A stretch of 44,490 nucleotides of DNA from positions 1 through 44,490 of the forward strand of contig JAICGZ010000011.1 of NCBI GenBank assembly GCA_025922875.1, written 5' to 3'. This document shows positions 35,392 to 44,307 of the stretch, in pieces (positions within the stretch are counted from its first letter, which is position 1; the number at the start of each line of letters is the position of its first letter). This DNA comes from Pyrinomonadaceae bacterium. GTDB lineage: Bacteria; Acidobacteriota; Blastocatellia; Pyrinomonadales; Pyrinomonadaceae. The position numbers and the translations under genes were made by a program. The notes under the pieces are model-generated. The model was not told the origin of the DNA, did no database searches, and saw nothing but the letters and a program-made list of their open reading frames with translations.

Positions 35392-35464
35392 CCACGGATC
35401 ACACGGATTGAAAACACGGATCCGTCTTCATCCGTGGCTTTGATCCGTCTTCATCCGCGGCTAA
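35389..35464. repeat. CCACGGAT-type palindrome, family B, shared by two stop codons
   Basis: It begins TAACCACGGATCACACGGAT, using the UPF0182 stop, and ends in CATCCGCGGCTAATC. The reverse complement of that end supplies the last codons and the TGA stop of the convergent TPR gene. Confidence 0.88.
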
Positions 35465-36260
35465 TCTTTTCCAGGAGCTTCTTCGCTTTCTCGACCGCAT
35501 CTTTATGCTCCGCGGTGTACTTCGGATCGGGCGTGATGCCCATCAACGTTTCGATCTGCTTCTTCGCCTCAGCGTAGCGATTGTTCTCTTCGTAAGCCTC
35601 GGCCAGATGAAAGCGCATCACGGTGTGGTTCGGATTGAGTTTGATTCCTTTCTCCAAATACTCAATCGCTTTCGTACTGTCGCCGCCGATCATCCGCGGC
35701 GCTTGCAGGTAAAGCCGGCCTAGTCCGAGATACGCGCTGTAGCCCTGGTAACCCTCATCCAGCTTCAGCACGGTTTCCATCTCGTGTTTAATGTCCTGAA
35801 AACTCGAGAGATTCGCGAGAGTGCTGTGCGCCGCGCTGCCTCCGTAGTTGGCCCCCAGCCAGAAGTGACCGTCAGGCTTGTCAGGCTGTAGTTGTACCGC
35901 GGCTTTAGCGGCCTCGGTTCCTTCGCGATACATGTCGTCCCGTTCGGAGTCGTTGTCGCTATGCTCGGCCACATAAAAGCTCGCCCGCGCGAGTTTCCAG
36001 GCCGCCTCGTAGTTTCCGTAATCGGCGGTTCTGGCTTGCCGCAGGGCCGCGACAGCCACTCGGGCCTTACTCAACTCCTCTCGTCCCTCGTAGAGCTTGT
36101 CTGCTTCCGCGATTCTCTCCGCCGCGAGCTTTGCGTCGCCCATGTCGACCTTCGGAGGACCCTCAGACGCACTGTTGTCGCATGCAACAGCACTCAAAAC
36201 CGTCGCCGTTACGGCCACCATTAATCGCAGCTTTTTGCTGCTTTTCCTAAGATTTATCAT
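35451..36260 (-). CDS. TPR lipoprotein
   Basis: The 269-residue product has a lipoprotein-like signal sequence ending at Cys27 (VTATVLSAVAC). It is followed by several TPR-like repeats (about 40-260), for example PDGHFWLGANYGGSAAHSTL and AIEYLEKGIKLNPNHTVMRF. It resembles the TRAP-associated / TPR-containing periplasmic scaffold proteins; its partner is unknown. The ATG at 36258-36260 follows AAAGGGCG; a TTG one codon earlier is less likely. The final residues and the stop lie in a palindromic repeat, so the C-terminus may differ from relatives. Confidence 0.82.
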   Translation of the reverse strand: MINLRKSSKKLRLMVAVTATVLSAVACDNSASEGPPKVDMGDAKLAAERIAEADKLYEGREELSKARVAVAALRQARTADYGNYEAAWKLARASFYVAEHSDNDSERDDMYREGTEAAKAAVQLQPDKPDGHFWLGANYGGSAAHSTLANLSSFQDIKHEMETVLKLDEGYQGYSAYLGLGRLYLQAPRMIGGDSTKAIEYLEKGIKLNPNHTVMRFHLAEAYEENNRYAEAKKQIETLMGITPDPKYTAEHKDAVEKAKKLLEKISRG

Positions 36261-36318
36261 CAATCGCCCTTTGATTGTCTAGCATTGCTATACAGTGTGT
36301 AATAGTTTTGCTTTCAGG

Positions 36319-36408: not shown

Positions 36409-37071
36409 TTGGCGGGGGCAGCATTCTACGATCTCGAGGGTACTTTAGTAAGTACCAATCTCGTGCATACTCTGTCCTTTTACGCGCGTCGCCAGCAGGG
36501 CTTGATGGCGAGTTTCAAGAAGAGCGCGGCTACTTTTTTGAGCCTGCCGGTCTTCGCGGTAACGGACCAGTATAGCCGAAAAGTTTTTAACGACCTCTAC
36601 TTCAAGAGGTACAAGGGTCAATCTGAGGATCGCCTGCGGTACTTCGCCGAGGAGTTGTTTGAAGACGTGATCAAGCCGGCGGTCTTCCCCGGAACTTATG
36701 AACTCATCGATAAGTCGAGAAAGCTAGGGCTGCGACAGGTCGTGATCACCGGTGCGCTGGATCTATCAGTCAAGCCGCTGATGGACCACCTGGGAATTAC
36801 TGAGTACGTGACGAATCGTCTGGAATTTGTAAACGGCATGGCGACGGGTCGTCTGTTGCCGCCCGTGATGGCCGCGGCCACGAAGGCTTCATGGATTCGA
36901 ACATTTACCGAGCGGGAAGGAATCAGCCTGAGCGACTCTTACGCTTACACAGACAGCATGAGCGATCTTCCGATGTTGTCGATAGTTGGTCATCCGGCAG
37001 TGATCAATCCCGATATGCGTTTACGACAAACAGCGCTGCACCACGATTGGCCAATACTAAATCTTAAATAA
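36409..37071 (+). CDS. HAD-IB family hydrolase
   Basis: A 220-residue HAD-superfamily protein of the SerB-like IB type. Motif I reads YDLEGTL: Asp8 is the nucleophile, but the usual second Asp is Glu10. Motif II is the Thr in VITGALD, motif III is Lys in AAATKASW, and motif IV is YTDSMSDLPML. A helical cap lies at about residues 20-95. The start is TTG 36409 behind a very strong GGAGGAG. It leads the four-gene operon, so a phosphate-ester step in lipid synthesis, such as removal from a glycerolipid phosphate, is a reasonable guess. The Glu substitution could alter or reduce phosphatase activity. Confidence 0.87.
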   Translation: MAGAAFYDLEGTLVSTNLVHTLSFYARRQQGLMASFKKSAATFLSLPVFAVTDQYSRKVFNDLYFKRYKGQSEDRLRYFAEELFEDVIKPAVFPGTYELIDKSRKLGLRQVVITGALDLSVKPLMDHLGITEYVTNRLEFVNGMATGRLLPPVMAAATKASWIRTFTEREGISLSDSYAYTDSMSDLPMLSIVGHPAVINPDMRLRQTALHHDWPILNLK

Positions 37072-37090
37072 TCCGTGTAATCCGTGGCTA
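37069..37090. repeat. half-copy of family B palindrome
   Basis: AATCCGTGTAATCCGTGGCTA follows directly on the TAA stop of the HAD gene. It is one arm only, without its partner, inside the 26-base gap before the next gene. Confidence 0.7.
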
Positions 37091-37097
37091 AAAACTG

Positions 37098-38696
37098 ATG
37101 GCACTTCAACTACGACGAAAGACGCACGAATCCGTAGTCTACATCGATCGGGATAGTGCGCCGCGCATCATTCCCTCCGGTGAGGACTTCATCCTCGAAG
37201 ACCTCCCGATCGGAACACGCGTTCTTTACCCGAATCCGTCGATCAAGGGTCTGCCGAATCGCGAAGCCGCCATACGTTACGCGCTCAATCATCCGCTGGG
37301 CTGCGATCCGCTGTTTGCTCAACTCGAACCCGGAATGCGTGTGACAGTCGCTGTCGACGATATCAGTCTGCCGCTGCCGCCGATGGCAACGCCGGATATA
37401 CGTCAGACCATTCTGGAAATCGTTTTGGACATGCTCGCCGGGCATGGAGTGGACGATGTTCACATCATCATCGCCAACTCCCTACACCGGAAGATGACCG
37501 AGTGGGAAATGAAGCGGATGGTCGGGCCGCGGATCTTTTCTGAGTACTATCCCGACCGTTATTACAACCACGACGCCGAATGGACCGATGGACTTGTCAA
37601 GATCGGCGAGACGAGGCACAAGGAACCGCTCGTCCTGAACCGGCGCTGCGCTGAAAGCGATCTGCTGATTTATGCCAATATCAATCTAGTGCCGATGGAT
37701 GGTGGCCATAAGTCAGTTGCAGTCGGACTCTGCGATTACGAGTCGCTGCGGGCTCATCACGATCCGCAAACGATTCGCGATTCTGACAGTTACATGGATC
37801 CGGCGCGCTCAGCCTTGAATCACAAAGTCACGCGGCTCGGAAAAATCGTCGATGAAACCCTGAACGTCTTTCATATCGAGACTGCGATCAACAATCGCAT
37901 GTACGGCGCGGACATGGATTTCCTGCTGCGCAACGAAGATGACTTTAGCGCCTTCGATCGCATGAAGTTTGAGGCCATGCGTTACACGATGAGCAAGCTG
38001 CCGCGCCCTGCGCGTCGCAAGCTTTTGCATTCGCGACCGGCGCAGTACGAGATGATCGCGTGTCACGCGGGCAAGACTGAGCTGGTTCACGAGAAGATCG
38101 TGGCCAAAGGTTTTGAGCAGTATGCGATTCCGATCCGTGGCCAGTGCGACATTCTGATCACGGGTATTCCGGATATTTCGCCGTACAACGTGTATTCGAT
38201 TCTGAATCCGTTGCTGGTCCAGGTGATGGCGCTCGGTTATCACTTCAACTTCTATCGCAACAAGCCGTTGTTGAAAAAAGGTGGTGTGATGATCCTGCAT
38301 CATCCATGTTACGACGAGTTCGATCACCAGTTTCATCCGAGCTACATCGAATTCTTTAATCGTTTGTTGCCGGAAACGCGAGATGCTTTTACGTTGCGTG
38401 AGAAATACGAGCGCGAGTTTGCAAACAATCCCAGCTACATCGAGATGTATCGCCGCGGTAACGCTTATCACGGCGCGCATCCGTTTTTTATGTGGTACTG
38501 GGGAGAAAACGGCCGCCAGCACGTCGGTAGAGTGATTGCGGCAGGCGCCGAGAACGCGCACGTGCCTGCGATGCTGGGCTGGGAACGCGCGGATAATTTG
38601 ACGGAAGCGATCGCGATGGCGCGCAGTTACATGGGCAACTCGGCTGAGATCACTATGCTGCACCAGCCAATTATCGGAATCGCTGACATGGAATGA
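37098..38696 (+). CDS. LarA-like (DUF2088) protein
   Basis: The 532-residue product matches the N-terminal domain of the nickel-pincer lactate racemase Lar[15 protein letters not shown] corresponds to the LarA entry strand. His130 in [13 protein letters not shown] matches the catalytic-loop His. Lys205 in [11 protein letters not shown] matches the lysine that carries the pincer cofactor in LarA, although the usual GGRK/GGAK is GGHK here. The rest diverges from LarA. It may be a racemase or epimerase of another 2-hydroxyacid or polyol, or have lost that chemistry. No larB, larC or larE cofactor genes are present. It is cotranscribed with the ElbD-like gene. Confidence 0.78.
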
Positions 38697-38727
38697 GATT
38701 TACGAGATTTATCCGGATTTACATAAT

Positions 38728-41700
38728 ATGAAGCTCTCTCCGACTGAGATCTACAAAGACCGAAAAATCTTCCTCATCGGAAGCACAGGGTTCCTCGGCA
38801 AGGTGACGCTGAGCATGTTGCTCCATCGCTTTCCGAATGTCGGCAAGATTTACCTTACCGTCCGCGCGCGGTCGCGGGAAGAGTCTGAAAATCGCTTTTG
38901 GAACAGCATCATCACCGCTCCTCCCTTCGATCCACTACGCGAACGTTACGGCGGTGCGCTCGAAGGTTTTGTTAACGAAAAAGTAGTAGTCCGCGGCGGC
39001 GACATTGCCGAACCAAACTTCGGCTACAGCGAAGAAGACGCGCAAGCCATCGCAGACGATATCGATATCATCATCAACTCCGCCGGCAACGTAACTTTCA
39101 ATCCCACGCTCGAAAGTGGTCTGCGCACCAACGTGGTCGGCACGCAAAACGTGATTGCTTTTGCCCGCAGGATGAAACGTCCCGCGCTGGTCCACGTCTC
39201 AACCTGCTTCGTCGCCGGTAATCGCTCGGGCGCTGTTTGGGAGAGCGATCCCGTGATCGGATATTTCCCACGCCAGCGCGAACTGGAAGGCGTCCATTTT
39301 TCAGTGGACCAGGAAATTGCGGATTGTGCAAAGCTCGCCGATCGTGTCAGAGACGAAGCCCGCGACTCAATGATGACCGCGCGGTTCCGCGAACTCGCGC
39401 GCAAACGGCTCAACGAAGAAGGTCGTGACGTTGACGATCCCGACGCCCTCGGACTCGCAGTCGCGCGCGAACGAAAAGTCTGGACCAGAACTCGTCTGAC
39501 CGATCTCGGCGTCGAGCGTGCGGCCTACTGGGGTTGGCCCAATATTTACACCTATACGAAATCGCTCGGCGAACAACTCGTCGCGGCTGAAACCGGAATG
39601 GTGCGCAGCATCGTGCGGCCAAGTATTGTGGAGTCGGCGATGTCGTATCCGTTCCCTGGCTGGAATGAAGGCTTCACCACCACCGCGCCCATCATCTTTC
39701 TGATCCGCAAAGGCCAGACGCAGATTCCCGCCGATCCGAAGTTGATTCTCGACATCACGCCGGTGGACCAGGTCGCATCGGTGATGCTGGCGGTCGCGGC
39801 GCAGGCATGTGTCGAGGAGCCGCAGCTCGTCTATCAAGCAGCAACCGGCGATGCGAATGCCAACAACATGGAACGTATCATCGGTCTCTGCGGGCTCGAC
39901 AAGCGCCGCCACTTCGAAGAGAAGGACACCGGCGTCAAGATCCTGAATCAGGTTGCTGCGCGCATGGAGCCACGGCCTGTCACGGTGTCGAAATTCGAGA
40001 GCACGTCGGTGCCGATGTTCAACTCGGCGGCGAAGAAAGCGTCATCATTGCTCGATCGTGTGCGACCGCGTTGGGGCGGCGGCCGTGTTGGCGAAGTGAT
40101 TGATCTGATGAAGAACAGCGTCGAGCGAGTCGAAGAGTTAACGCGCGAAACGACCGAAGCGTTCGACATGTTTCGCCCCTTCACTGTTGAGAACGCTTAC
40201 GTTTTTCGGTGCGACAACGTGCGCTCGCTTTTCCATCGTATCAGTGAAGACGAACAATCACTGTTGACCTGGAACCCGGAAAAGTTTGACTGGTATGACT
40301 ACTGGCTCAACATTCACTTGCCCGGACTCACGAAGTGGGTGTTTCCGACGCTCGAAGACGAAATGCGGGCCAAGCCGAAGCGTGTTTACACGTATCGCGA
40401 TCTGCTCGAGCTGTTCGAAACGTCGACCAAGCGTCACGCAACCAGGGTTGCGATGCGCATCGAACGCGATGGCCGCAAGGAGCAATACACCTATGCCGAT
40501 CTGCGCGAGTTGGCCACGCGCGTCGCCGGATTTCTCGCGAGCGAAGGCATCAAACCGGGTGACCGCGTGCTGCTCGTCAGCAGCAACGCGCCCGAATGGG
40601 GCATGACCTATTTCGGCGTGCTGAAAGCCGGCGCCACTTGCATTCCGTGCGATCCTGAAAGCTCCACTAGCGAGATTCTCAACTTTGCTCGCGCGGGAAA
40701 TGCGGCGGGAATTATTTGCAGCGACGCAATCATCAACGATCACCCGACACTGCGTGAATTGCTTCAGGAGCACGGCCGCGCTCGACTGTGGACCTTCCAG
40801 GACGTTTTTGCTTTACCCGATGAAGAGACCGAAGACCAGCGCATCGCGCTCTTGCCTCAGCGCGTGCACCCGCAAGGTGTTGCTTCGCTCATCTTTACTT
40901 CCGGCACGACGGGCCATCCGAAAGGCGTCATGCTTTCGCATCGCAATCTGACGAGCATGGTGTCGATGTTGTCGTCGGTTTTTGATATGACAACTCGCGA
41001 CGGCGTTTTGTCAGTCTTGCCGCTGCACCACACATTCGAGTTCTCGACAGGTTTTTTGACGCCACTAAGCCGCGGCGCACAGATCACTTATTTGCCGGAA
41101 CTCACCAGCGATGCGCTCGCGCGCGCGATCAAGAACGGCCACGTCACCGGCATGGTTGGCGTGCCCGCGTTGTGGGAACTATTACACCGGCGCATCAAGA
41201 ACCGGCTTTATGAACGCAGCGACTGGATCGGCAAGGCAGCCGACAATCTCATCCGGGCAAATGCGTGGATGCGCGATAAGACGCCGCTCAACTTCGGCCA
41301 GGTGTTGTTTTATCCGATTCACGAAGGCCTGGGCGGGCGCATCCGCTACTTCATCAGCGGCGGCTCGGCATTGAGTGAAAAGATTCAGCGCGACTTTCAC
41401 GGTCTGGGATTCACGATTCTCGAGGGATATGGTCTAACTGAAGCCTCTCCCGTGTTGACTGTTACACGGCCGGAAAATCGCATGCTCACCGGAACTGTCG
41501 GCAAGCCCTTGCCGGGCGTCGAGGTGCGTATTGCCGATCCGGACGCGAGTGGTGTCGGCGAAGTAATTGCTCGTGGTCCAAACGTGATGCTCGGTTACTA
41601 CGAAGACGAGGCGGCCACGCGCAAGACACTCGTCGAACGCTGGCTCTACACGGGCGATCTCGGCCGTGTTGACGACGACGGCAATCTCTATCTCGTTGGC

Positions 41701-43119
41701 CGCTCCAAAGAGATCATCGTCGATACGAACGGCAAGAACGTCTATCCGGACGAGCTCGAAGAGATCTACGCAAACTCTCCGTATATCAAAGAGCTGAGTA
41801 TCGTCGGTCTGCCGGATGGCATCGGTGAAAAGGTCGCTTGTCTCGTTGTGGCTGATGATGAATACGACATCTCACTCTCACGGGCAGCGCTGCACCGGCA
41901 TGTTGAAGAGCACTTCCGCGAAGTCTCTGCTTCCCTGCCCTATTACAAACGCGTGAAGGTTCTCCATTTCACTGACATCGAACTGCCACGTACAGCAACT
42001 CGCAAGGTAAAGCGACGTGAAGTGGTCCAAATGATGGAGTCTCTCGAGGAAAGTCAGAAGTCAGGCCGTCGTGGTGGTGTGCAGGAGGCTGCAAATGCCG
42101 AAGCGGCGTGGTTGTTGGGAGTTGTGGCGACCGTCGCAAACCGTCCGCGATCTGATGTGTCGGTTGATACGCGACTGAGCGATCTGGGTTTTGACAGTTT
42201 GATGTTTGTCGAGCTTGCGACCGCGATCGAAAGCAGCGGCGGCTCGATCTCCGCACCGGAACGATTCAACGAGATACAGGATGTGCGCGAGCTTCTGACG
42301 GTAGTCAGCCGTCAACCTGTTGTCTCAGCCAAACAGGAAACGCGAACGGACGATCGTAAAAAGGACGAAGAGATCCGTGTGCCTTCGGTGGTTCGCACTG
42401 CGGGAACGAAGGCCGGCGATTTCCTCCAGCATTTCCTCTACGATCAGTTTCTGCATACGCATTACGACGGGCGCTCAAACATTCCGCCGCACACCAACTT
42501 CATCGTCGCCGCGAACCACTGTTCGCACCTCGATATGGGCCTGACAAAGATGGCGCTCGGTGAATTCGGCAAGGATCTGGTCGCGCTCGCTGCTGCCGAT
42601 TACTTCTTCGACACGAAGTACAAACGCGCGGTGATGGAGAACTTCACGAATCTGGTGCCGATGGAACGAACGGGTTCGTTGCGGCAGTCACTGCGTCACG
42701 CGAAGTCGTTTTTGGATCGTGGCTACAACGCGCTCATCTTCCCCGAAGGCACGCGCTCGATGACCGGGATCCTGGCTGACTTCAAACCCGTGGTCGGGTA
42801 TCTCGCGCTGCACGCGCGCGTGGGCATCCTGCCGATGTTTCTAGAGGGCACGTATGAAGCGATGCCTAAAGGGACCACGATTATCAAGAACCGCAATGTT
42901 GGTGCACGCATCGGGCGCTTCCTCGAAATTGAAGAGCTTGAAGAGATGACGAAAGGATTGCCGCGAGCCGAGGCGTACAGGCTTATCGCCGCGCGCGTCA
43001 GGCATGAGGTCGTAAATCTCCGCGACGGCACCCGCAACAAATTCGATGCGAAGGAATTGCGGAAGTTTTGGAGGAGCGAGCGTAAGAAGGAACTGGTGAG
43101 CGAGGAGGTCGCGGTATAA
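38728..43119 (+). CDS. ElbD-like fatty acyl reductase / AMP-ligase / ACP / acyltransferase
   Basis: A 1463-residue four-domain enzyme. (1) Fatty acyl-CoA reductase (about 10-530): NAD(P) motif GSTGFLG at 18-24, YxxxK at Tyr274/Lys278, and a C-terminal segment including EKFDWYDYW. (2) AMP-forming acyl ligase (about 545-1105): TSGTTGHPKG at 724-733, EGYGLTEASPV and YTGDLG. (3) Acyl carrier domain (about 1120-1195): LGFDSL with phosphopantetheine Ser1157. (4) PlsC-type acyltransferase (about 1215-1440): NHCSHLD at 1263-1269 and FPEGTRS. The layout matches ElbD, needed for ether lipids in Myxococcus xanthus. The enzyme could activate a fatty acid, reduce it to an alcohol or aldehyde, and acylate glycerol phosphate. 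ATG 38728 lacks a clear ribosome binding site. Confidence 0.9.
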   Translation: MKLSPTEIYKDRKIFLIGSTGFLGKVTLSMLLHRFPNVGKIYLTVRARSREESENRFWNSIITAPPFDPLRERYGGALEGFVNEKVVVRGGDIAEPNFGYSEEDAQAIADDIDIIINSAGNVTFNPTLESGLRTNVVGTQNVIAFARRMKRPALVHVSTCFVAGNRSGAVWESDPVIGYFPRQRELEGVHFSVDQEIADCAKLADRVRDEARDSMMTARFRELARKRLNEEGRDVDDPDALGLAVARERKVWTRTRLTDLGVERAAYWGWPNIYTYTKSLGEQLVAAETGMVRSIVRPSIVESAMSYPFPGWNEGFTTTAPIIFLIRKGQTQIPADPKLILDITPVDQVASVMLAVAAQACVEEPQLVYQAATGDANANNMERIIGLCGLDKRRHFEEKDTGVKILNQVAARMEPRPVTVSKFESTSVPMFNSAAKKASSLLDRVRPRWGGGRVGEVIDLMKNSVERVEELTRETTEAFDMFRPFTVENAYVFRCDNVRSLFHRISEDEQSLLTWNPEKFDWYDYWLNIHLPGLTKWVFPTLEDEMRAKPKRVYTYRDLLELFETSTKRHATRVAMRIERDGRKEQYTYADLRELATRVAGFLASEGIKPGDRVLLVSSNAPEWGMTYFGVLKAGATCIPCDPESSTSEILNFARAGNAAGIICSDAIINDHPTLRELLQEHGRARLWTFQDVFALPDEETEDQRIALLPQRVHPQGVASLIFTSGTTGHPKGVMLSHRNLTSMVSMLSSVFDMTTRDGVLSVLPLHHTFEFSTGFLTPLSRGAQITYLPELTSDALARAIKNGHVTGMVGVPALWELLHRRIKNRLYERSDWIGKAADNLIRANAWMRDKTPLNFGQVLFYPIHEGLGGRIRYFISGGSALSEKIQRDFHGLGFTILEGYGLTEASPVLTVTRPENRMLTGTVGKPLPGVEVRIADPDASGVGEVIARGPNVMLGYYEDEAATRKTLVERWLYTGDLGRVDDDGNLYLVGRSKEIIVDTNGKNVYPDELEEIYANSPYIKELSIVGLPDGIGEKVACLVVADDEYDISLSRAALHRHVEEHFREVSASLPYYKRVKVLHFTDIELPRTATRKVKRREVVQMMESLEESQKSGRRGGVQEAANAEAAWLLGVVATVANRPRSDVSVDTRLSDLGFDSLMFVELATAIESSGGSISAPERFNEIQDVRELLTVVSRQPVVSAKQETRTDDRKKDEEIRVPSVVRTAGTKAGDFLQHFLYDQFLHTHYDGRSNIPPHTNFIVAANHCSHLDMGLTKMALGEFGKDLVALAAADYFFDTKYKRAVMENFTNLVPMERTGSLRQSLRHAKSFLDRGYNALIFPEGTRSMTGILADFKPVVGYLALHARVGILPMFLEGTYEAMPKGTTIIKNRNVGARIGRFLEIEELEEMTKGLPRAEAYRLIAARVRHEVVNLRDGTRNKFDAKELRKFWRSERKKELVSEEVAV

Positions 43120-43124
43120 AAACG

Positions 43125-43201
43125 AACCACAGATGATACGGATCAAAGCCGCGGATGTAATCCGGATTGATCCGTGGCTTTGATCTGTGTCATCTGTGGT
43201 T
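43125..43201. repeat. CCACAGAT/CCACGGAT palindrome, family B
   Basis: A 77-base near-perfect inverted repeat from AACCACAGATGATACGG to its complement ending CATCTGTGGTT. It includes an inner CAAAGCC/GGCTTTG pair. It lies inside the operon, between the ElbD-like and SDR genes, where it could reduce expression of the last gene. Confidence 0.93.
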
Positions 43202-43209
43202 TAAGCGCT

Positions 43210-44307
43210 ATGCCTACCAAACAGCCCGGCAAACGCACCGCACGCATCACCCCGGTAACCACCGGCACCAAACGCCGTGCGGCCATCGAGAAGCGACAAC
43301 GCGCGGTTACACTCGTCACCGGTGGCACAGGTTTTCTCGGCTCACACCTCGTTCGACAACTCACCGAAGAAGGCGCCAAAGACATTCGCGTCATGGCTAC
43401 TTCGATCCCCGATTGGCTCGTCGATCTGGGTGTCGAGACCTTTGCCGGTTCGATCACCAGCGCCGAAGACAACAAACGCGCAGTCGAAGGCATTAGCGAG
43501 ATCTACCACCTCGCCGGAAAAGTTTCGCGTGAACGCGAAGACGCTCGCGAGATGTACGACGTTCACGTCGAAGGCACACGTCTGCTGTGTGACGCTGCCA
43601 AAGCCGCGGGCGTCAAAACCATCGTGCTCGCATCCACGAGCGGAACGATCGCGGTCACTAAAGACGGCGAGGTCGTCCCTGATGAAACCTATCCGGTTCC
43701 GCTCGACATCATTTCCCGCTGGCCCTACTACGCGAGCAAAGCCTACCAGGAGATGGCTGCCCTCGAACGTTTCCAGGGCAAAGGCTTGCGCTTGGTCATC
43801 ATGAATCCGAGTTTGTTGTTAGGACCCGGAGACGATCGTCTTAGTTCGACTAAACTCATTCTCGACTTCATGGGTCGAAAGATCGGAGCAGTACCGACCG
43901 GAGGCGTCAGTTTCGTCGATGCGCGAGACGCGGCCCGCACGTTTCGAGTCGCGATGAAGAAAGGACGGCATGGCGAACGTTATCTGCTCGGCGCCGCTAA
44001 CTGGACCTTCTCGAAGTTTTTTGGACGACTCGAGCGCCTGACAAAAGTTTCGGCGCCGAAGTTTGCACTGCCTTCCAGAATCGCGATTACGGGCGCAAAC
44101 CTGCTGGATTCTTTTTTCAAGCAGTGGGACCTGGCATCGCCGGTTGAGCCGGGCGCCATCGAGATGGCCCAGTATTTCTGGTATCTAAACTGTTTGAAAG
44201 CCTCGCGCGACCTCAACTTCAAGCCGCGTGACCCCGGCGAGACCCTGCACGACACAGTCGCCTACCTCCGTGAGAACTTCCTCGGCAGCAACGCCTTTGG
44301 GAAATAA
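43210..44307 (+). CDS. extended SDR / NAD-dependent epimerase family protein
   Basis: The 365-residue product has a basic N-terminal extension of about 30 residues, then a Rossmann fold with VTGGTGFLG (GGTGFLG at 38-44) and the catalytic YxxxK at Tyr173/Lys177 (PYYASKAYQ). It belongs to the extended SDR family that includes 3-beta-HSD-like, dihydroflavonol-reductase-like and hopanoid-associated epimerases. Last gene of the operon; it probably oxidises or reduces a hydroxyl or keto group on the lipid product. I chose ATG 43210 because an upstream GTG lies in the palindrome. The 5' part is intact and the gene ends before the damaged right end of the window. Confidence 0.88.
   Translation: MPTKQPGKRTARITPVTTGTKRRAAIEKRQRAVTLVTGGTGFLGSHLVRQLTEEGAKDIRVMATSIPDWLVDLGVETFAGSITSAEDNKRAVEGISEIYHLAGKVSREREDAREMYDVHVEGTRLLCDAAKAAGVKTIVLASTSGTIAVTKDGEVVPDETYPVPLDIISRWPYYASKAYQEMAALERFQGKGLRLVIMNPSLLLGPGDDRLSSTKLILDFMGRKIGAVPTGGVSFVDARDAARTFRVAMKKGRHGERYLLGAANWTFSKFFGRLERLTKVSAPKFALPSRIAITGANLLDSFFKQWDLASPVEPGAIEMAQYFWYLNCLKASRDLNFKPRDPGETLHDTVAYLRENFLGSNAFGK

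Follow-up and report, generated by a model that had tools for sequence, protein, structure and literature searches.

The window analysed in this work is a stretch of 44,490 nucleotides that represents contig 11 (JAICGZ010000011.1) of the 6.8 Mb assembly of a Pyrinomonadaceae bacterium (GCA_025922875.1). Near its end, four plus-strand open reading frames (ORFs) are arranged head to tail and span 36409-44307. We consider it likely that these genes are an elbBCDE operon making glycerol alkyl-ether lipids, with ElbC most likely binding the nickel-pincer nucleotide (NPN) derived from LarB, LarC, and LarE. Their membership in the published elb (ether-lipid) system is very probable. The operon and the pathway were already known; as far as our searches show, the LarA-superfamily identity of ElbC is new. 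The gain is a testable identity for ElbC, together with a compact variant of the operon from which a narrower core of the system emerges.

The elb operon and its recurrence

The first gene, elbB (36409..37071), encodes a HAD-IB family hydrolase of 220 aa with the motif I DLEGT (Pfam HAD), and its product exceeds the NCBIfam cut-off for HAD-SF-IB-hyp1. It is followed by elbC (37098..38696; Pfam Lar_N, NCBIfam NF052592), coding for a single-histidine LarA-superfamily protein of 532 aa, and by elbD (38728..43119), a fusion protein of 1463 aa. Within the latter, Pfam resolves a fatty acyl reductase (FAR) part (38776..40344, NAD_binding_4 and Sterile), an AMP-binding acyl ligase part (40414..42006), an acyl carrier protein (ACP) part with the sequence LGFDSL (42109..42300, PP-binding), and a PlsC-type acyltransferase part (42460..42840, Acyltransferase). 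The last gene, elbE (43210..44307), encodes an extended short-chain dehydrogenase/reductase (SDR; Epimerase/3Beta_HSD, also identified with NCBIfam). Gaps of 26, 31, and 54 bases lie between elbB and elbC, elbC and elbD, and elbD and a GTG start of the SDR gene, respectively, and this spacing suggests cotranscription of all four genes. The coordinates, the length of 1463 residues, and the domains given in a preliminary description of this DNA were thereby confirmed by ORF calling, Pfam, and NCBIfam.

In Myxococcus xanthus, the operon comprises elbA (SDR), elbB (HAD), elbC (function unknown), elbD, and elbE (SDR) (PMC9131029). Since the order in Myxococcus sp. CA023, M. dinghuensis, and Corallococcus carmarthensis is SDR-HAD-LarA-ElbD-SDR, elbC corresponds to the LarA-like gene. 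With Myxococcus sp. CA023 as the myxobacterial reference (the compared loci did not include M. xanthus itself), the window's ElbD showed 47% identity over 1447 columns and its ElbC 61% over 520 columns. The likeness to the M. xanthus operon thus consists of the order HAD, LarA-like, ElbD, and SDR on one strand and of the shared domain set, and both Pfam and the identity values bear out the FAR-AMP-ACP-PlsC architecture of ElbD that had been proposed at the outset. Order and identity together indicate orthology to the myxobacterial elbBCDE genes. A stand-alone carboxylate reductase or a polyketide synthase loader, named in the preliminary description as conceivable closest relatives of ElbD, was ruled out by full-length synteny with elb. 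An elbA-type SDR is absent directly upstream of elbB in the window, where a tetratricopeptide repeat protein (Pfam) is encoded on the opposite strand at 35451-36263. Because insertions in elbA had no effect in M. xanthus (PMC9131029), elbA was not counted as required for membership.

For an overview of recurrence, loci were collected by ElbC, and the best 80 of 555 were taken as the named loci. ElbD was fused and located downstream of ElbC in 53 of them; of the others, the contig was too short in 12, ended within the FAR part in 4, and encoded a stand-alone FAR in 1, leaving 10 with neither, which are taken up below. In 70 of the 80 loci, a HAD gene precedes ElbC in the same orientation, and an SDR gene came next in 43 of the 47 loci with enough contig. 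The elbBCDE order therefore recurs. With regard to the phylum, ElbC exceeded the curated cut-off in 26 of 297 Acidobacteriota genomes. Among the matches listed, all 19 genomes from the family of the window carried it, as did 1 of the 13 others in its class. In the ElbC tree, the window adjoins Acidobacteria MAG8 (L122, 95% identical) in a group including records named Pyrinomonadaceae, so that the acidobacterial context recognised earlier is Blastocatellia/Pyrinomonadaceae-like. The set of 29 ElbC-bearing Acidobacteriota genomes used in the following consists of the 26 above the NF052592 cut-off plus G242, G148, and G008. As to ElbB, the motif I DLEGT, in which Glu replaces the second Asp, characterises 26 of the 67 named ElbB frames whose motif could be recognised and 19 of the 25 ElbB from Acidobacteriota genomes; the remainder in both sets carry DxDGT.

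Much of the biology of this operon is already in print. The assignment to ether lipids made in the preliminary description is likely right, yet not new, as the whole elb operon has been published for several subdivision-4 genomes (PMC10087280, PMC11868695, PMC8788747). Pyrinomonas methylaliphatogenes produces ether lipids (PMC4644332), and elbD and elbE mutants of M. xanthus contain less ether lipid (PMC9131029). The further proposal that the LarA-like protein and the SDR are steps nobody had assigned had to be given up: the SDR is ElbE, whose inactivation is known to lower ether lipids (PMC9131029), and the LarA-like partner is elbC, a gene already known from the operon, with no function assigned (PMC9131029). 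Among open-licence PubMed Central papers (main text, without supplementary files), we came across no description of ElbC as a LarA homologue, nor any joint appearance of ether lipid and lactate racemase; the combination of nickel-pincer and ether lipid returned only a Haloferax function assignment, judged by its listing.

ElbC as a LarA-superfamily protein

The window's ElbC scored 808 bits against NF052592 (LarAH14/15/16; cut-off 740), and the Myxococcus and Corallococcus proteins reached 825-837 bits, so that all of them lie above the cut-off of a family named 'NPN-dependent hydroxyacid isomerase'. We read '14/15/16' as groups 14-16 of the LarA homologues (LarAHs). According to PMC12611868, His174 is missing in groups 14 and 15, and LarAHs with His174 replaced were previously uncharacterised; group 16 had been set aside because its residues are not conserved (PMC7583248). 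In the literature consulted, we found no activity reported for groups 14-16. The predicted fold (predicted local distance difference test 87.7, predicted template modelling score 0.88) is closest to PDB entry 9q3k, with template modelling scores of 0.77/0.85, followed by classical LarA. By sequence, the solved structures closest to ElbC are those of the single-histidine proteins LarA_Sp and LarA_Bw.

For a residue-level comparison, 110 rows were aligned (80 named, 29 from phylum genomes, and the window), in which some genomes appear twice and 104 are different; one protein of 466 aa on a long branch (G074) is included in these counts and lies outside the 29 ElbC genomes. The counterparts of LarA Asp72, His108, Lys184, and His200 were identical in 110 of 110 rows. 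Among them are the counterpart of the NPN-tethering Lys184, which is Lys205 in the window (codon 37710..37712), and that of the nickel ligand His200, which is His221 (codon 37758..37760). The position of Arg75, on the other hand, is occupied by Leu in 85 rows, Val in 11, Met in 10, Gln in 2, Ile in 1, and a gap in 1, and no histidine was found in the ElbC loop 190-203 of any of the 110 rows as a counterpart of the second catalytic histidine, His174. No lysine other than K205 is kept in at least 97% of the rows; hhalign did not place K298 unambiguously, and K394 is present in 95 of 109 rows. Judged by these residues, ElbC appears to keep the NPN attachment and one acid/base, and to have lost the carboxylate-binding arginine and the second acid/base.

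LarA_Sp and LarA_Bw (PDB 9q2u, 9q3k, 9q3j) are the best available comparison. Like ElbC, they possess one catalytic histidine and keep the NPN lysine and the nickel histidine. However, they carry Asn in place of His174 and Lys in place of Arg75, where ElbC mostly has Leu, Val, or Met; the loop in the His174 region is approximately three residues shorter in ElbC, and their gene context is glycolytic, unlike that of ElbC. An ordinary lactate or malate racemase was ruled out on His174 and Arg75. As the residues argue against a hydroxy-acid isomerase, the name 'hydroxyacid isomerase' is doubtful for ElbC.

Cofactor genes and the case for a nickel-pincer enzyme

If ElbC binds NPN, the genes for its synthesis should be found in the same genomes. 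LarB, LarC, LarE, and Lar_N were checked in 35 genomes chosen from the 80 named loci. An ElbC described here as the sole Lar_N match is to be read as the only one detected, because the Lar_N profile missed the Corynebacterium glutamicum control, which has a published LarAH. LarC was present in 34 of the 35 genomes, and LarB and LarE exceeded the cut-off in 32 and 35, respectively. ElbC was the sole Lar_N match in 14 genomes, all of which had LarB, LarC, and LarE (two LarC partial at contig ends, one LarB split over two contigs). For the Myxococcaceae isolates, this applied to 7 of 7, with LarC and LarE in all 7 and LarB likewise in 7 (one split over two contigs). The window's own genome contains LarB, LarC, and LarE, with LarB cut by a contig end. 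Among the 29 Acidobacteriota genomes, 22 had all three above the cut-off and 4 had none; ElbC was the sole Lar_N match in 7, accompanied by LarC in 7, LarB in 6, and LarE in 5. Pooling both sets, in which one genome is shared (G267 = G320), gave 20 distinct ElbC-only genomes, 17 of them with larB, larC, and larE.

A larger sample of 193 Myxococcota genomes pointed in the same direction. Here, 104 genomes had a single Lar_N match in the ElbC score range (E ~1e-41 to 2e-31, a class of presumed ElbC picked by hand), and LarC was found in 103 of these 104, versus 25 of the 41 genomes without a Lar_N match. The genomes counted are related and not independent, so that p values for these counts are rough, and only the genomes lacking Lar_N were filtered by size. 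LarA homologues have been reported in 80-100% of Myxococcota species, with no role given (PMC11770544), and the count of 104 among 193 suggests that many of them are ElbC. Taken on its own, the claim that ElbC is an NPN enzyme appears reasonably likely to us.

Several observations weigh against the reading of the operon as an ether-lipid system with an NPN-binding ElbC. In Myxococcota, LarC also occurred in 25 of 41 genomes without a Lar_N match, and in 15 of the 21 of those with at least 4 Mb. In Acidobacteriota, LarC accompanied ElbC in 25 of 29 genomes versus 186 of 268 otherwise (p 0.08), which is no clear enrichment, and with this background co-occurrence was dropped as strong proof for the phylum. 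For four of the 20 ElbC-only genomes (L126, L132, L149, L163), the stretch retrieved at the locus contained no ElbD, and altogether 10 of the 80 named loci showed neither ElbD nor FAR there. The NPN-phosphate arginine is lost in all ElbC rows, and most fused operons are not adjoined by the lipid kinase discussed below. We found no elbC mutant in the literature consulted, the effect of elbB insertions was put down to polarity (PMC9131029), and Pontiella has elbD homologues with ether lipids undetected (PMC11868695). Because of this last case, the presence of elb alone is no proof of the product.

The most direct objection comes from four genomes that are 97-98% complete (G141, G189, G227, G283) and carry ElbC without LarB, LarC, or LarE above the cut-off. 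The G283 assembly consists of approximately two contigs, and in the relative G251 the three genes lie on separate contigs. ElbC of these four is 79-80% identical to that of the window, as in same-genus relatives with larBCE, and retains the NPN lysine and the nickel histidine. The four do not form one clade in the ElbC tree. As G141 groups with G149 and G173, both of which have larBCE (support 97), a single shared loss of larBCE would be improbable, except where gene and species trees disagree. The same genomes (L039-L042) have, besides ElbC, a two-histidine LarA whose residues are intact, and for this reason their NPN source is in question as well as ElbC.

From these genomes follows the best-surviving alternative, namely that the operon makes ether lipids with a LarA-fold ElbC that no longer uses NPN and either works as an enzyme without a cofactor or serves ElbD as a scaffold. 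The loss of the Arg75 and His174 counterparts in 110 of 110 rows, the lack of an invariant Lys298 counterpart, and the conservation of ElbC in the four genomes without LarB, LarC, and LarE would all fit such a protein. However, the NPN lysine and the nickel histidine are kept in every one of the 110 rows, including those of the four larBCE-less genomes, which may obtain NPN elsewhere given their two-histidine LarA, and LarC accompanies an ElbC-like sole Lar_N match in 103 of 104 Myxococcota genomes. We therefore regard an NPN-free ElbC as rather unlikely.

Compact variant and possible chemistry of ElbC

A compact variant with the order HAD-LarA-FAR-SDR, in which a stand-alone FAR takes the place of ElbD, was found at four loci (G095/L058, G131/L069, G188/L060, and L161). 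Its FAR consists of NAD_binding_4 and a Sterile-like end, with Sterile above the cut-off in one of the four, and the ElbC proteins of these loci form one clade in the ElbC tree. HAD, LarA, FAR, and SDR are the shared core of the fused and compact forms. In all four compact operons, a YegS/DAGK-type lipid kinase gene comes next on the same strand. By blastp, this kinase was found in 4 of the 80 named loci and in 6 of the 29 phylum stretches; apart from the four compact loci, G242 and G148 carry it in the direction of the operon, and in L108 (= G267), L111 (partial), and L120 it lies beside the operon on the opposite strand. Fused operons are not generally accompanied by this kinase. The product of the compact form is likely a neutral glyceride that is phosphorylated afterwards.

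For the fused form, ligase and ACP activity have been reported for M. xanthus ElbD, and these parts would activate a fatty acid. The reductase part may then yield a fatty aldehyde or alcohol, and the PlsC part may attach the second chain. ElbE would reduce or oxidise a glycerol carbonyl, and ElbB would take off a phosphate. With a single catalytic histidine and without a carboxylate-binding arginine, ElbC would be expected to transfer a hydride on an alcohol other than a hydroxy acid.

A second M. xanthus operon, MXAN_1676-1674, encodes AGPS, a FAR-acyltransferase, and an SDR, and represents a parallel function set for alkyl ethers (PMC9131029). It carries AGPS, whereas the elb operon carries a LarA homologue instead, so that by comparison of the two sets ElbC falls opposite AGPS. 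A FAD-binding AGPS domain was absent from the four operon proteins (Pfam); the remaining genome was not searched for AGPS. AGPS, the alkyl-dihydroxyacetone phosphate synthase, is a flavoenzyme that swaps acyl for alkoxide on a C2 ketone. A LarA-type cofactor could make such a ketone transiently by abstracting the hydride from C2 and giving it back later, and in the role of AGPS, ElbC would thereby exchange acyl for alkyl at glycerol C1. Derived by elimination, an AGPS-like exchange is the step we favour for ElbC among those considered, yet as a tentative proposal with the odds clearly against it. Equally doubtful is the wider claim that ElbC is an NPN alkylglycerol(-phosphate) synthase and hence a third glycerol-ether route beside flavin AGPS and the PlsA/Ger reductases. 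To our knowledge, no earlier NPN enzyme acts on a lipid rather than on a hydroxy acid. Mss and Ger/PlsA represent the other published bacterial ether route (PMC13274423).

Alternatively, ElbC could act reductively and transfer a hydride to the sn-1 ester or to an aldehyde-glycerol hemiacetal, converting ester to ether without acyl/alcohol exchange. LarA chemistry is indeed a hydride transfer at a carbinol carbon. The i15:0 aldehyde was present in wild-type M. xanthus and absent in elbD mutants (PMC9131029), which also counts in favour. However, the known racemases employ NPN as a shuttle and bring about no net redox change, the reduction of an ester to an ether requires net reduction, and a vinyl-first reductive route has been judged implausible since CarF (PMC9131029). 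On balance, a reductive ElbC seems unlikely. That the cluster makes a wax ester, an alkyl glyceride store, or a secondary metabolite with ether lipids as an incidental product is improbable, for although the elbD homologues of Pontiella occur without detected ether lipids (PMC11868695) and related sponge-symbiont clusters are catalogued as NRPS-like, though also tied to ether lipids (PMC9426513), elbD and elbE mutations lower ether lipids in M. xanthus (PMC9131029), and ElbC is found throughout the listed genomes of the window's family, to which the ether-lipid producer Pyrinomonas can be added.

Flanking features and implications

Between elbD and elbE, a near-perfect inverted repeat at 43124..43202 (hairpin -59.4 kcal/mol, z -12.7) distinguishes the window from the M. 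xanthus operon and might separate elbE expression. The elbE ORF as called starts from GTG 43174 (377 aa); as this GTG falls within the strong inverted repeat, the start was placed at ATG 43210. The ElbB motif DLEGT of the window matches part of its named relatives, which have DLEGT or DxDGT. A promoter and terminator scan gave no excess over shuffles (3 vs 3.9 and 8 vs 9.5). When up to 2 mismatches are allowed, the window contains 10 matches to a motif of the CACAGATGA-NN-CGGAT type versus 0.33 expected; one of them lies between elbB and elbC (37071-37086), and the motif looks like a dispersed repeat.

The contig stops 183 bases beyond the SDR gene, and the operon may therefore continue past elbE. 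In three close relatives, the SDR is succeeded in the same direction by a gene of 710-720 aa that has no Pfam match (L085:17468-19597, L089:15530-17689, L122:17238-19379); the window contig ends short of this position. Inserted genes revealed no shared extra step: G283 has ORF6N and PIN genes between ElbC and ElbD and a transposase between HAD and ElbC, and G251 has a methyltransferase. Six myxobacterial loci (L126, L132, L143, L149, L159, L163) contain ElbC with approximately 10 kb downstream and neither ElbD nor FAR, five of them with a HAD frame upstream. Within the window's own genome, the next-best FAR matches, on contigs C92 and C76, were by eye not further ElbD copies. The C76 match reads as a carrier-reductase protein, and C92 holds an apparent nonribosomal peptide synthetase cluster with a protein of 1514 aa carrying a terminal reductase, followed by a lantibiotic-dehydratase-like protein.

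Ether-bond formation via the Elb route in aerobic bacteria is unsolved (PMC9131029), and the placement of ElbC in the NPN/LarA family makes this gap testable without a new substrate guess. The automatic annotation as 'hydroxyacid isomerase' is put in question, as the residues do not support it, and a LarA group without an assigned substrate would gain a biological context. Should ElbC indeed be an NPN alkylglycerol synthase, this would explain much of the high prevalence of LarA homologues in Myxococcota. The ether lipids of subdivision-4 Acidobacteria bear on climate proxies based on branched glycerol dialkyl glycerol tetraethers, and if nickel matters, the ether-lipid yield would be set by a trace metal as well as by temperature.

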